A stretch of 50,385 nt of DNA from an uncultured Collinsella sp. (GTDB lineage: Bacteria > Actinomycetota > Coriobacteriia > Coriobacteriales > Coriobacteriaceae): contig CAKUGA010000007.1 of assembly GCA_934654515.1 (NCBI GenBank), positions 1 through 50,385 of the forward strand, in the 5' to 3' direction. Each line of letters starts with the position of its first letter. The first letter of the stretch is position 1. This document shows, in pieces, positions 5,069-37,110 of this stretch. The position numbers and the translations under genes were made by a program. The notes beneath the pieces were generated by a model that saw only the letters and a list, made by a program, of their open reading frames with translations, ran no database searches and was not told the DNA's origin.

Positions 5069-5107
5069 AAACCACCACAAAGGTGCCTGTCCCCTTTGTG
5101 GTGGTTT
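5069..5107 (-). repeat. Family-3 hairpin (terminator-like), copy 2
   Basis: A perfect 15-bp stem AAACCACCACAAAGG/CCTTTGTGGTGGTTT with a 9-base loop. One arm includes two bases of the MscS-gene stop codon (5106-5108). The minus-strand loop carries GGGACAGGCAC, as in copy 3. Confidence 0.85.
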
Positions 5108-5873
5108 AGGCGATGATGGGGGCGATGGCACGAATGCAGGCGTCGGCTGCCGTAAAAGTGGTGCTATCGTCGCTGACGATAAAGATGATTTTGCCCTTAA
5201 TGCCAAAGTCGCCGATTTCGCTAAAGAGCACGTACGGCTCCTTGTCAAAGCCAGAGATGGGCGAGACGGCCGTTTTGGTTGCGCTCGTGAGCTCGTCTGC
5301 CAGCGCGTCAAGGGAAGCCCACTTAGACGTGTCCTTTACGGCAACGGGCACGGCCACGCGCCCAAAGGGCATCAGATGCACGAGTGTGTTCTTGGAGATG
5401 TTGGAGTTGGGCACAATGATGGTCTGCCCGCAGGCGTCCTCGATGGTCGTGTGGCGCCAGGTGATGTCTTGGACCACGCCGGATACGCCGCCGACCTCGA
5501 TATTGTCGCCGGGTTTGATAATGCCCATAAACGTCACCTGCATACCGCCGATAAGGTTCGACAGCGTGTCCTGAAAGCCGAGCGAGATGGCGATGCCGCC
5601 GACGCCAAGAGCGGCGACGAGGGCGTTTGCATTAATGCCAAAACAGTTGTCGAGGATAAAGCTGCCGCCGATCATCCAGATGACGGCGCGCGCGATGTTG
5701 ATGAAGATGCTCGATGCTGGGAGCGGGTTATCATCGCGGTTAAGCAGGTGGTGCAGGGTCTTGGACGCGATTTTGGCGGCAACGGCGGTGCCGATGGCCA
5801 AGATACCGGCCCAGATGATGTTGTGGACCCATCGTTGTGCAAAGAAATGAAGAATTGGCTCAAACAATTCCAT
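5106..5873 (-). CDS. Small-conductance mechanosensitive channel, MscS family
   Basis: I place the start at ATG 5873 (protein begins MELFEP, 255 residues), because AGGAGG at 5884-5889 serves it with a 10-base spacing; an ATG further upstream would translate the ribosome binding site itself. There are three hydrophobic helices (about residues 14-36, 56-75 and 80-110). The last carries the glycine/alanine-rich MscS pore pattern ALVAALGVGGIAISLGFQ. The beta domain follows with F-M-G-I-I-K-P-G-D-N-I-E-V and the IVPNSN motif. It should open as a membrane valve under hypo-osmotic tension. It looks monocistronic, with a family-3 hairpin at its end. Confidence 0.92.
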   Translation of the reverse strand: MELFEPILHFFAQRWVHNIIWAGILAIGTAVAAKIASKTLHHLLNRDDNPLPASSIFINIARAVIWMIGGSFILDNCFGINANALVAALGVGGIAISLGFQDTLSNLIGGMQVTFMGIIKPGDNIEVGGVSGVVQDITWRHTTIEDACGQTIIVPNSNISKNTLVHLMPFGRVAVPVAVKDTSKWASLDALADELTSATKTAVSPISGFDKEPYVLFSEIGDFGIKGKIIFIVSDDSTTFTAADACIRAIAPIIA

Positions 5874-8055: not shown

Positions 8056-8095
8056 AAAACCACCACAAAGGTGCCTGTCCCCTTGTGGTGGTTTT
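8056..8095 (-). repeat. Family-3 hairpin (terminator-like), copy 3
   Basis: Stem AAAACCACCACAA(A)GG/CCTTGTGGTGGTTTT with one unpaired A and the same loop as copy 2. It lies between the stop of the ABC ATPase gene (8104) and the start of the nucleotidase gene (8032), so it separates two minus-strand transcription units. Confidence 0.85.
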
Positions 8096-8103
8096 CTAAG
8101 TCG

Positions 8104-14587: not shown

Positions 14588-15490
14588 ATGATTGTCGAGA
14601 ACCATGCGCTGTGGGGCGAGGAGCCGACCGAGGAATATCCGGCGACGTTTACGTATTTGGGTGCCGAGCCGCTGCCCGATAAACCGAATGGCCGCCGCCC
14701 TGCCGTGATTATCTGCGGCGGAGGTGCGTTTACGCATATCGCTCCGCATGAGCAGGATCCCGTGGCGTTTGCGTTTTTGGATCACGGTTACCAGGCCTTT
14801 GTGCTCAACTATGTCACAAGTTCTACGGGTGACGTGAGCTTTCCGCACCCCCAGGCAGATCTTGCCAAGATGGTCGCCACGGTGCGTGCGAATGCCGACG
14901 AGTGGCATGTCGATCCCAAGCGCGTGTGCGTCGTGGGCTTTTCTGCTGGCGGCATGATTTGCGCCTCGCTGGCAACACAGTGGAAGACCGGCCCCTTCGC
15001 GGCGCTTGCCGGGGCGCGTCCGGACGACATTCGTCCCGATGCCGTGGTGCTGGGCTATCCATTGCTCGACTTTGCCTATGTGCGCGACATGCAGACGCGC
15101 GATCCGCGCATTGACTTGCGTGTGCCCAAGACGGGCGGCAAGACGGGGCGCGATCTGCTCAACGACTATCTGTCGATGGTGACGGGTGGCGAGGCAACTG
15201 ACGAGCATTTGGCCGATATCTGCCCCACCACACATGTTTCGCGCCAGATGCCGCCGACTTTTGTGTGGGGCGTGTCCGACGACAAGACGGCGCCGATTGC
15301 GCAGGTCTACCCGTTTGCACAGCGCATGGCCGAGGAAGGCGTCGCATGCGAGATGCACGTCTTTGACCAGGGCGGCCACGGCCTTTCGCTCGGCAACGCC
15401 AACACCGCGGTCGACAACGAGGACAAGCAGGTGGCGGTCCGTCCATGGATTCGCTTGGCCTTCCGCTTCCTGGAGCGCCACGGCTTCTAG
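14588..15490 (+). CDS. Alpha/beta hydrolase (acetyl-esterase / BD-FAE-like)
   Basis: 300 residues from ATG 14588, with GAAGGGA 6 bases upstream. The oxyanion segment is ICGGGAF, where many esterases have HGGG. The nucleophile elbow is GFSAGG, the acid is probably the Asp of WGVSDDKT and the catalytic His lies in FDQGGHGLS. This is the arrangement of prolyl-oligopeptidase-like acetyl/xylan esterases. There is no signal peptide, so it acts in the cytoplasm, perhaps deacetylating imported glycosides. It is followed at once by a short hairpin whose stem begins with the last base of the stop codon. Confidence 0.85.
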   Translation: MIVENHALWGEEPTEEYPATFTYLGAEPLPDKPNGRRPAVIICGGGAFTHIAPHEQDPVAFAFLDHGYQAFVLNYVTSSTGDVSFPHPQADLAKMVATVRANADEWHVDPKRVCVVGFSAGGMICASLATQWKTGPFAALAGARPDDIRPDAVVLGYPLLDFAYVRDMQTRDPRIDLRVPKTGGKTGRDLLNDYLSMVTGGEATDEHLADICPTTHVSRQMPPTFVWGVSDDKTAPIAQVYPFAQRMAEEGVACEMHVFDQGGHGLSLGNANTAVDNEDKQVAVRPWIRLAFRFLERHGF

Positions 15491-15563
15491 TTACGCGGTT
15501 TTACCAAACCGCGTAACAGCTCGACGCTGCGCCTTTGGTTCCGCCGTTCTAACGAACGGCGGA
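15490..15563 (+). terminator. Two tandem short hairpins after the hydrolase gene
   Basis: Hairpin A1 (15490-15517) has a perfect 12-bp stem and TACC loop. Hairpin A2 (15540-15563) has a perfect 10-bp stem TCCGCCGTTC and a TAAC loop. A1 recurs after galU (26327-26348) and A2 after rpoC (34784-34806), in each case directly ahead of a family-1 element. Neither has a T-run, so rho-independent termination is uncertain. Confidence 0.65.
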
Positions 15564-15570
15564 CCGGTCG

Positions 15571-15685
15571 ACGCTGCAAGCCCGCCAGAGCGGCAATCTG
15601 ACGTTCAGCTTCGGCGGCATGACCAGAAGGTCAATGCCGCCTCGCTTCGCGTCACCTTGCTCGCTCTGGCGGGCTTTCGCTGTCC
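15571..15685 (+). repeat. Family-1 covarying hairpin element, copy A
   Basis: The outer stem 15578-15591 pairs with 15663-15676 (14 bp, perfect). The inner stem GGCGGCAT/ATGCCGCC (15613-15620 with 15634-15641) is capped by GACC-AGAA-GGTC with one bulged A. The left flank is CGACGCTGC. It shares loop and architecture with copies B (26355) and C (34814) but has different stem sequences. Confidence 0.85.
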
Positions 15686-23692: not shown

Positions 23693-23827
23693 GGCACGCG
23701 CCGCCGAAGGCCAGGCGCAAGGTTTTCGTAGATTCCGCACGAGCCGAAGAGCACTTAATGTGCTCTTCGTGCGAGCCAGGACTTGACCGAGCGAAAACCT
23801 TGCGCCTGGCCTTCGGCGGAGCGTGCC
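23693..23827. repeat. Family-2 covarying hairpin element, copy D
   Basis: The 36-base outer arms (23693-23728 and 23792-23827) pair with one mismatch. The inner stem CGAAGAGCAC/GTGCTCTTCG closes a TTAAT loop. Conserved segments TTCCGCACG and CAGGACT lie between the stems and are shared with copy E (36970). Flanking ACGGAAACCCGG (about 23661-23672) and CCGGTTTTCCGT (about 23850-23861) extend the dyad with a mismatch, so the whole palindrome spans roughly 200 bp. Confidence 0.85.
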
Positions 23828-25421: not shown

Positions 25422-26327
25422 ATGAAGGCAATCATCCCCGCCGCCGGTCTTGGCACGCGTTTTCTGCCTGGCACCAAGTGCACGCCTAAAGAGATGCTGC
25501 CGGTGCTCGACAAGCCGGTCATCCAGTACGTCGTCGAGGAGGCACTCGACCCCGAGGAGGTCGACGATGCCATCATCGTTACCTCTCCTGGTAAGCCCGA
25601 GCTGCTGAGCTACTTCCAGCCCGATCGCTCGCTCGAGAACCTGCTGCGCGAGCGCGGCAAGAACGCCTATGCCGATGCCGTCGCCCACGCGGGCGGTATG
25701 CCGGTCGACTTCCGTTATCAGTACGAGCCCAAGGGCCTCGGCCATGCTATCCGCTCTGCCGCCGACGCTGTGGCAGGGGAGAACTTCCTGGTTCTTCTGG
25801 GCGACTACGTTGTGCCCAACCGCGACATCTGCGACAAGATGCTCGCCGTCTCCAAGGAGCACGGTGGCGCTTCGGTTATCGCCGTCGCCGCGTGCGCTCC
25901 CGAGGAAGTCAGCCGTTACGGCGTTATCGCCGGTGACCGTGTGGGCTCGCTCGAGGGCTTCGAGAATGTTGCCGATGCCGAGCCGGGCGCTGTCTGGCGT
26001 ATCGGCGGTCTGGTTGAGAAGCCTGCCCCCGAGGCGGCTCCCTCCAACCTGTACATCGTCGGCCGTTACCTGCTGAGCCCGCTGGTCATGGACCTGCTGG
26101 CCGATCAGCAGGCCGGCAAGGGCGGCGAGATCCAACTCACCGACGCCATGGCCCGTTCGCTCGACCGCGAAGCCATGTACGCCGTCGTCATCGACCCGCT
26201 GTCGGGCTACGACACCGGCACTCCCTCTGGTTGGATGGCCACTAACGCTCTCATGGCTGCAAGCGACCCCCGCTTTGCCGATGCCTTCTGGGACGCCATC
26301 GACGAGCGCGGCGGCTTAAAGCGTTAA
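25422..26327 (+). CDS. galU: UTP-glucose-1-phosphate uridylyltransferase
   Basis: 301 residues from ATG 25422. It begins with the nucleotidyltransferase signature IIPAAGLGTRFLPGTKCTPKEMLP-type segment and shows KPVIQYVVEEA, PKGLGHAI, LLGDYVV and the GGLVEKP segment. It makes UDP-glucose for capsule, teichoic acid and galactose metabolism. GAAAGGA lies 12 bases before the ATG, a long spacing. The gene interrupts the usual rplL-rpoB junction and carries its own promoter and terminators, so it is an insertion in an otherwise conserved cluster. Confidence 0.95.
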   Translation: MKAIIPAAGLGTRFLPGTKCTPKEMLPVLDKPVIQYVVEEALDPEEVDDAIIVTSPGKPELLSYFQPDRSLENLLRERGKNAYADAVAHAGGMPVDFRYQYEPKGLGHAIRSAADAVAGENFLVLLGDYVVPNRDICDKMLAVSKEHGGASVIAVAACAPEEVSRYGVIAGDRVGSLEGFENVADAEPGAVWRIGGLVEKPAPEAAPSNLYIVGRYLLSPLVMDLLADQQAGKGGEIQLTDAMARSLDREAMYAVVIDPLSGYDTGTPSGWMATNALMAASDPRFADAFWDAIDERGGLKR

Positions 26328-26348
26328 CGCGGTTTTACCAAACCGCGT
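26327..26348 (+). terminator. Short hairpin after galU (A1 type)
   Basis: A perfect 9-bp stem ACGCGGTTT/AAACCGCGT with a TACC loop, starting in the last base of the galU stop codon. The same hairpin follows the hydrolase gene at 15490. Confidence 0.65.
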
Positions 26349-26354
26349 AACTGC

Positions 26355-26471
26355 TCGACGCTGCACGGGCATCAGAGCGACAATTTGCCATTCAAAGAGG
26401 ACGGCATGACCAGAAGGTCAATGCCGTCCTCTTTTCATGTCAACTTGTCGCTCTGATGCCCGTTCGCTGTT
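26355..26471 (+). repeat. Family-1 covarying hairpin element, copy B
   Basis: The outer stem 26366-26383/26445-26462 is 18 bp and perfect. The inner stem 26394-26407/26421-26434 is 14 bp, capped by GACC-AGAA-GGTC with one bulged A. Left flank CGACGCTGC and right flank TTCGCTGT match copy A. Confidence 0.88.
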
Positions 26472-26501: not shown

Positions 26502-26538
26502 AAACGGGTGCGGACTTCGGTCTGCACCCGTTTTTTTA
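26502..26538 (+). terminator. Intrinsic terminator between galU and rpoB
   Basis: AAACGGGTGC pairs with GCACCCGTTT and is followed by a long T-run. It isolates rpoBC from galU. Confidence 0.9.
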
Positions 26539-30293: not shown

Positions 30294-30299
30294 TTGACT

Positions 30300-34778
<4,479 letters not shown>

Positions 34779-34783
34779 CTAGT

Positions 34784-34806
34784 TCCGCCGTTCTAACGAA
34801 CGGCGG
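34784..34806 (+). terminator. Short hairpin after rpoC (A2 type)
   Basis: A perfect 9-bp stem CCGCCGTTC/GAACGGCGG with a TAAC loop, starting 5 bp after the stop codon. It matches the A2 hairpin at 15540 base for base. Confidence 0.65.
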
Positions 34807-34813
34807 CGACCTC

Positions 34814-34930
34814 CGTCGCTGCGCGGCCCCCAGAGCTACAATCTGTCATTCAAAAGGCAGGGCATGACCAAAAGGTCAATGCCCTGCCTTTTTCATGCCA
34901 CCTTGTACGCTCTGGGGGCCGCTCGCTTGC
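34814..34930 (+). repeat. Family-1 covarying hairpin element, copy C
   Basis: The outer stem 34823-34836/34909-34922 is 14 bp and perfect. The inner stem GGCAGGGCAT/ATGCCCTGCC (34856-34865 with 34879-34888) is capped by GACC-AAAA-GGTC with one bulged A. Both stems differ from copies A and B at several positions with matching changes on the other arm. The remainder of the gap up to 35011 shows nothing recognisable. Confidence 0.87.
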
Positions 34931-36969: not shown

Positions 36970-37110
36970 CGGATTCCCGGTCCGGGCGGCCCGCTGTTTA
37001 AGTTTGTCGCGAGTTCCGCACGCAAAGGAAAGCACTTAATGTGCTTTCCGTCTTGCGCAGGACTGTAGAGCAGCAAACTTAAACAGCCGGCCGCCCGGCC
37101 CGGGAATCCG
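36970..37110. repeat. Family-2 covarying hairpin element, copy E
   Basis: The 37-base outer arms (36970-37006 and 37074-37110) pair with two mismatches. The inner stem GGAAAGCAC/GTGCTTTCC closes a TTAAT loop. GTTCCGCACG and CAGGACTG match copy D although the outer stems share no sequence with it. It lies 84 bp upstream of the rpsL -35 box. Confidence 0.85.

Follow-up and report, generated by a model that had tools for sequence, protein, structure and literature searches.

A dispersed, REP-like hairpin element locked in sense behind gene stops in Collinsella and other Coriobacteriales, with a possible role at transcript 3′ ends

Introduction

REPs are short units that occur in hundreds of copies and in both orientations relative to genes. 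An integron attC site is defined by its R and L boxes and an accompanying integron integrase, and IS110 elements have guide RNAs. The motif Collinsella-1 (RF01700, a 196-position model) comes from the same bacterial group as the element described here. PMC2817692 gives REPs as usually exceeding 100 copies per genome, and REPs serve as targets of insertion sequences according to PMC1525189. A survey of the human microbiome lists palindromic candidate structured RNAs that are maybe terminators or REPs, with one Collinsella candidate in its main text (Fremin and Bhatt 2021, PMC8040213). This main-text Collinsella candidate, HMP2_254, is 51 bp long and lies upstream of the L7/L12 gene, in which it differs from our element.

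Here we analyze a hairpin element with three copies in a stretch of 50,385 nucleotides from an uncultured Collinsella sp. (hereafter the window). As a dispersed extragenic palindrome near gene 3′ ends, a composite of several hairpins and a target of insertion sequences, it resembles REPs and BIMEs. It differs from them in its size (112 nt plus a short hairpin versus short REP units), its copy number (tens versus hundreds), its single orientation and the lack of any copy around 28 loci of Y1/REP transposases. The likeness to an intrinsic terminator lies in the T run that follows the stem in class A inner stems and in the place that the element takes at rpoC, and probably at queA. However, the element is much longer than such a terminator, is interrupted several times and has a short hairpin ahead of it; it is dispersed and homologous between unrelated genes, some of its subtypes have no T run, and termination is only predicted. 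As for a comparison with attC sites, the copies are dispersed single sites.

Results

Three copies in the window

The original prediction placed three related hairpins at 15571-15685, 26355-26471 and 34814-34930, and all three were confirmed by a covariance model (R1) at the positions given in Table 1. The E-values of 1.5e-28, 1.3e-26 and 2.6e-26 are not independent of the model, since two window copies and a relative's rpoC copy were among its 20 training copies; the next-best place in the window had an E-value of 0.15. Each copy was also matched on the minus strand at a weaker score. A search with the motif ATGACCARAAGGTCAATGCC, allowing up to three mismatches, returned three matches in the window, all on the plus strand, and none in 100 shuffles. 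The outer arms AAGCCCGCC, ACGGGCATC and GCGGCCCCC each have an exact partner, and the TTCA segments, the cap GACC-ARAA-GGTC and its bulged A are all as first described. The predicted location in sense behind gene stops was found as well, the genes being those for an alpha/beta hydrolase (stop ends at 15490), a nucleotidyl transferase (26327) and rpoC (34778). A short hairpin separates stop and long hairpin in all three copies, with two in tandem at the 15.5-kb copy. The unit reads stop codon, short hairpin, CGACGCTGC, long hairpin and TCGCTG.

Table 1. Positions of the hairpins and the neighboring terminator in the window.
Feature	Positions	Strand	Remark
First short hairpin, GTTACGCGGTTT-TACC-AAACCGCGTAAC	15490..15517	+	Directly at the alpha/beta hydrolase stop
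Second, tandem short hairpin, TCCGCCGTTC-TAAC-GAACGGCGGA	15540..15563	+	
Long hairpin, class B, outer arm AAGC../..GCTTTCGCT	15570..15681	+	
Short hairpin, ACGCGGTTT-TACC-AAACCGCGT	26327..26348	+	Overlaps the end of the nucleotidyl transferase gene
Long hairpin, class A, inner stem AAAGAGGACGGCAT../..ATGCCGTCCTCTTTT	26357..26468	+	
Ordinary intrinsic terminator, ACGGGTGCGGACTTCGGTCTGCACCCGTTTTTTT	26504..26537	+	Retained downstream of the inserted element
Short hairpin, CCGCCGTTC-TAAC-GAACGGCGG	34785..34806	+	6 nt past the rpoC stop
Long hairpin, class A	34815..34927	+	At the place of the rpoC intrinsic terminator in close relatives without the element

To establish the general anatomy, we used 135 unique core-pattern copies and inspected 30 diverged ones by eye. 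In a typical copy the stop codon is followed by a few nucleotides, the short hairpin (in most copies), NNN and YGACGCTGC, the long hairpin, TCGCTG and, among the copies listed, one of several tails. The stem letters of the short hairpin, for example GTTACGCGGTTT-TACC-AAACCGCGTAAC, vary while their partners match. The outer stem of the long hairpin is variable and leads to a 2x2 internal loop that lies within CAATCTGCC/GGCACCTTG. Six pairs separate this loop from the other 2x2 loop, TTCA/TTCA, beyond which come the inner stem and a cap carrying a single bulged A or T. The architecture is fixed, with a 9-nt left foot, the two 2x2 internal loops, the capped stem with its one bulged base and a 6-nt right foot. 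The outer arms are the most variable part of the element, and within subfamilies near-identical arms recur at many sites. Many of the most diverged copies have neither short hairpin nor feet, and by reading the first loop of a diverged copy can have its two strands exchanged between the arms.

In class A the inner stem is paired and contains A and T tracts. In class B an internal loop occupies this position and the outer stem is AAAC/GTTTT-like, and a third subtype is located at queA. By reading, the inner stem of class A has a U tract, but the stem is bulged; class B has only TTTTCG, and in one queA subtype the tract is weak. The terminator scans used below do not call the element's own bulged stem.

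An order-wide family absent from the catalogues searched

A covariance model from 20 diverse copies found at least 32-46 places in each of 15 close genomes, which are taken to be the C. aerofaciens group, and 0-16 places in each of the other 20 congeners (up to 21 with laxer filters); these counts are possibly low, as at most 65 candidates were scored per genome. In an earlier sample a covariance model detected the element in 31 of 35 congeners and in 1 of 23 other genomes. The order-wide draw gave a match at E ≤ 1e-5 in 52 of 197 genomes, spread over 17 of 89 genera, and the three window copies thus belong to an order-wide family. Copies with the exact core (≤2 mismatches) were present in 18 of 58 relatives, all from the same genus (18 of its 35 congeners), at 1 to 19 per genome. 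The nearest genome compared, G001, has 40% of the window's sampled words. At least 120 stretches in GTDB contigs matched, and among the 80 matches listed all are from Collinsella, most of them named C. aerofaciens. A viral or phage origin was rejected, as the exact pattern hit 0 viral contigs and no phage record; in the plasmid collection the single matching record is an 899,693-base C. aerofaciens contig.

The window has no match at gathering score in Rfam release 15. At E ≤ 1 it has only four matches, of which mir-789 (31.6 bits, threshold 100) falls on the rpoC copy. Likewise, no Rfam family matched in five copy-bearing loci or in a set of 20 whose copies are diverged or lie at the queA or fabG site.

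Membership in Collinsella-1, on which the original prediction was undecided, is excluded. RF01700 stayed below its gathering threshold in the window and in the same sets of five and 20 loci. It was located once in each of five close genomes, as a single strong copy away from the listed hairpins (G007, G024, G014, G001 and G011; L368-L372), and at four weaker places in a sixth, two of them above the cut-off. In the open PMC literature no description of the hairpin element was recognised, and it is apparently uncatalogued. Our confidence that this is a real element distinct from Collinsella-1 is high.

Copies lie in sense just past stop codons

To describe the genomic context, 141 copies with enough flank were grouped into 57 distinct upstream sites, with genes approximated by open frames of at least 110 codons, so that single cases can be wrong. 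A same-strand gene stop lies at most 46 nt before the left foot at 43 of the 57 sites, compared with 8.8% of random positions, and a convergent gene lies within 46 nt on the right at 8 of the 57. Counted per copy, the left stop is within 46 nt in 99 of 119 cases, some of these stops falling inside the short hairpin, and a convergent stop is near the right foot in 13 of 91. The element is orientation-locked, sense to the upstream gene. Together with the tens of places per close genome, this position matches the dispersed extragenic location of REPs; the presence of REPs in both orientations finds no counterpart, and even five loci with an inverted cap have their feet in sense. The stop codons TAG, TAA and TGA occur 63, 45 and 11 times at the element and 292, 223 and 109 times in long open frames, so that TGA is somewhat rarer and there is otherwise no bias.

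The link of REPs to RAYT (Y1) transposases was not found for the element. No copy was detected at E ≤ 1 in 28 Y1_Tnp loci, which are part of all Y1 matches, and the core motif is absent from all of 20 regions around Y1 transposase genes. RAYT as the mover was rejected, as PF01797 is present in 37 of 58 genomes, several of them without exact-core copies. The 7-mer GGGGAC[GA] has at least one match in 13 of the 20 Y1 regions, which could be chance. Repeats of the GGGGACG type occur near several Y1 transposase genes (L053, L064, L068, L069) and are crowded in the tails behind hairpin elements; they are perhaps a separate RAYT-linked REP family. Conserved terminal inverted repeats, as in MITEs, were not seen either, the outer arms being the part that varies most. 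The CGCTG at both feet is constant across copies, which does not look like duplicated targets of varied sequence.

Filled and empty sites

Behind rpoC, the canonical terminator is absent from all eight close carriers of the element and present at +26 to +29 in all seven close non-carriers (carrier status by model). The eight carriers share one locus-specific element. The window is a ninth carrier and has no canonical terminator on the plus strand. At more distant rpoC loci the strict scan finds a terminator in 6 of 15 and none in 9 of 15, and behind queA in 13 more distant genomes, none of which has the element, it finds one in 4 of 13 and none in 9 of 13; at both sets of loci its silence is weak evidence. 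All 13 close genomes have the element behind queA, and the scan detected a canonical terminator there in none of them. The queA elements comprise at least three subtypes with several short hairpins; the carrier L301 was missed by the motif test of the scan and found by the covariance model, and L312 has one weak model place (E 0.0063), away from the queA end.

The 26.4-kb site, behind the nucleotidyl transferase gene and before rpoB, is filled in the window and has no model match in any of 15 close relatives. Here the element took the place of about 25 nt, among them the former stop codon, and the former terminator still stands downstream. Similarly, in G028 a diverged family copy behind rpoC is followed by an ordinary terminator. 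These two cases indicate that the element is not always the terminator. In fabG-fabF of six congeners (genes named from L329) a family hairpin of differing subtype lies past the fabG stop. Different modules thus occupy the same gene end in different species, and the mismatched short-hairpin halves in L170 and L031 would fit recombination between copies.

Covariation and template switching

The stem changes had been taken as compensatory within one family, and the alignment of 20 diverse copies bears this out. In it 97.1% of cells pair, and two-sided changes occur at 21 of 41 pairs versus 13.6 in shuffles. The covariation score is 0.374, compared with 0.133 for shuffles and no more than 0.081 with a slid partner, a control that favours the structure because the structure was derived from the alignment on which it is scored. 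Further pair types did not exceed the shuffles (37 versus 35.5).

The original prediction also held that such changes mean selection on folding, which is not safe by itself. Selection on the sense transcript should give more G.T than A.C mismatches. The per-pair counts, on which we rely, were 12:12, 15:19 and 38:43 in sets of 20, 32 and 35 sequences (the power of the test is uncalibrated), and this balance provides no support for selection on sense-strand RNA. A first count of 75:18 in class A and 17:9 in class B was skewed towards G.T by a single bulge-shifted pair that contributes 47 cells; once this is left out, class A gives 28:18, and a count from aligned arms ran in the opposite direction (37:69), which we attribute to recurrent fixed mismatches.

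Two footprints point to a mutational source of pairing. Compared with its sister L101, L145 has four clustered changes in one arm that make the arms complementary and extend uninterrupted pairing from 18 to 32 bp. In L021, L094, L165, L177 and L188 the cap is the exact reverse complement, with the feet unturned; these five loci are probably one site in five genomes and one event. Judging by their pattern, both kinds of change are what replicational template switching makes, a process described as creating and maintaining RNA hairpins (Monttinen and Loytynoja, PMC8794818). Given these footprints and the G.T/A.C balance, covariation alone is no proof of selection on RNA, and the arms can stay complementary through mutation as well as selection.

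The internal loops behave differently from the arms. Of 67 non-redundant copies, 64 have the TTCA loop in both arms, whereas 200 shuffles gave 1.7 such copies on average and never more than 5 (counts that ignore kinship); in a more diverged subset the loop is kept in both arms of 29 of 31 copies. L145 is one of the three exceptions among the 67. Since template switching would erase the interruptions, their retention is hard to explain without constraint. It looks as if the interruptions are constrained, although the arms turn over.

An IS110-family insertion sequence at the right foot

A sequence starting CATATGACCCAATCCG directly follows TCGCT in 18 loci, nearly all of them chosen for holding an element. 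L024 shows both ends of this insertion sequence, in the order TTTCG-CT, IS, CT-GTCGCTGCC. A 125-residue piece of it matched DEDD_Tnp_IS110 with an E-value of 4.1e-6 and 27.1 bits, just below the curated cut-off of 29. Of nine ends in four genomes that form an unselected set, six lie at the right foot, one at an element remnant, one at an ordinary terminator end and one in another sequence. The element is thus a preferred landing site, in keeping with REPs as insertion-sequence targets, and the preference probably works through the short sequence TTCGCT/GTCG. A specific place of insertion is thereby known for an IS110-family insertion sequence in a genus that is common in the gut.

Other features of the window

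A second family of long hairpins lies at 23693-23827 and 36970-37110, with arms of 36-37 nt and an inner GCACTTAATGTGC hairpin, and a copy of it is also found behind the rpoC terminator in L198. A AAACCACCACAAAGGTGCCTGTCCCCTTTGTGGTGGTTT-like sequence forms a repeated symmetric, terminator-like hairpin in three copies (2343-2385, 5069-5111 and 8057-8099). At 2171-2315, paired near-identical inverted repeats surround CTCGATCTGTAACATCT / TGTTACAGATTGAGA. RpoC (30294-34778) has an RNA_pol_A_CTD match near its C terminus (residues 1345-1395, E 1.2e-8), that is, an alpha-subunit domain in the beta-prime subunit.

Discussion

Our preferred reading, which on the sequence evidence we consider evenly poised between right and wrong, is that the element would be a dispersed, orientation-locked REP-like composite palindrome of Coriobacteriales from which the mRNA of the upstream gene gets its 3′ untranslated end. 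Its hairpins may end or shield the transcript. The part of an intrinsic terminator could be played in class A by the inner stem, bulged and with A/U tracts (AAAAGGC..GCCTTTTT), and in class B by the outer stem with GTTTTCGCT; at other sites the hairpin would block 3′ exonucleases. The arms may be kept complementary by selection and template switching together, and the interruptions might persist either as features that are recognised or because an uninterrupted 45-bp palindrome would not be stable. The main support for a role at the 3′ end, at the same even level of confidence, comes from the order-wide family, the stop-linked polarity, the terminator swap seen in the rpoC and queA counts, the covariation and the retained TTCA loops. 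Weighing against it are the balanced G.T/A.C mismatches, the ordinary terminators kept at the 26.4-kb site and behind rpoC in G028, and the queA subtype which, by reading, has no good U tract in either stem; in addition, termination past fabG would come at the expense of fabF, unless this gene is transcribed from a promoter of its own. The claim that can be tested best is that of termination at rpoC and queA.

The best-surviving alternative, which we regard as rather unlikely, is a selfish REP- or MITE-like DNA repeat that is spread by a putative single-strand DNA transposase or by recombination, plays no part in the transcript and is found at the stop side because those copies survived. The tens of copies per genome, the subfamilies with near-identical arms at many sites and the difference in sites between close species, such as the 26.4-kb site filled in the window and in 0 of 15 relatives, would be expected of such a repeat, as would its use as an IS110-family target, a habit that PMC1525189 describes for REPs. 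Strict polarity and the fixed distance from the stop codon are not, and the 28 Y1/REP-associated transposase loci contain no copy at E ≤ 1. Moreover, variation is greatest in the outer arms, which would serve as terminal repeats if the element were a MITE, and at rpoC the element was exchanged with the terminator rather than simply inserted.

It is quite improbable, in our view, that the element is a functionless quasipalindrome, a neutral inverted repeat whose arms are homogenised by template switching, so that covariation would arise without selection. Template switching should erase the loops, yet TTCA stands in both arms of 64 of 67 copies, and the stop-side location and the terminator exchange would be left unexplained. 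This account draws on the arm changes between L101 and L145 (18 to 32 bp of pairing), the exactly inverted caps, the equal numbers of G.T and A.C mismatches and a mechanism already described for RNA hairpins (PMC8794818). About equally improbable is a DNA-level site whose extruded hairpin is bound or cut by a putative protein (recombinase, nucleoid protein or hairpin nuclease) and whose gene-end position reflects access: mismatches without strand asymmetry, loop-1 strands swapped between arms in diverged copies, which a two-fold DNA site could tolerate, and the landing of an IS110-family element at the foot would suit it, but it conflicts with the strict gene-sense polarity, the insertion target is explained by TTCGCT/GTCG, which is used also at a terminator and in another non-element sequence, and a search for a partner gene among Y1 transposases found none.

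The 3′-end reading has a bolder form, which we put forward as doubtful speculation. The element would be an order-wide mobile transcript-end module that moves between genes, inserts itself in sense right behind stops, displaces the native terminator even at rpoC and swaps parts with other copies; its stems would be paired largely by template switching, and selection would hold only the internal loops and the bulge, as features recognised by a dedicated partner.

The case limits the use of covariation as proof of RNA function, since strong two-sided changes occur here together with template-switch footprints and without an excess of G.T. If true, selfish or neutral DNA would gain a way into gene expression through repeats that come to occupy the 3′ ends of core genes, and the filled and empty pairs at rpoC make this takeover of gene ends directly testable.
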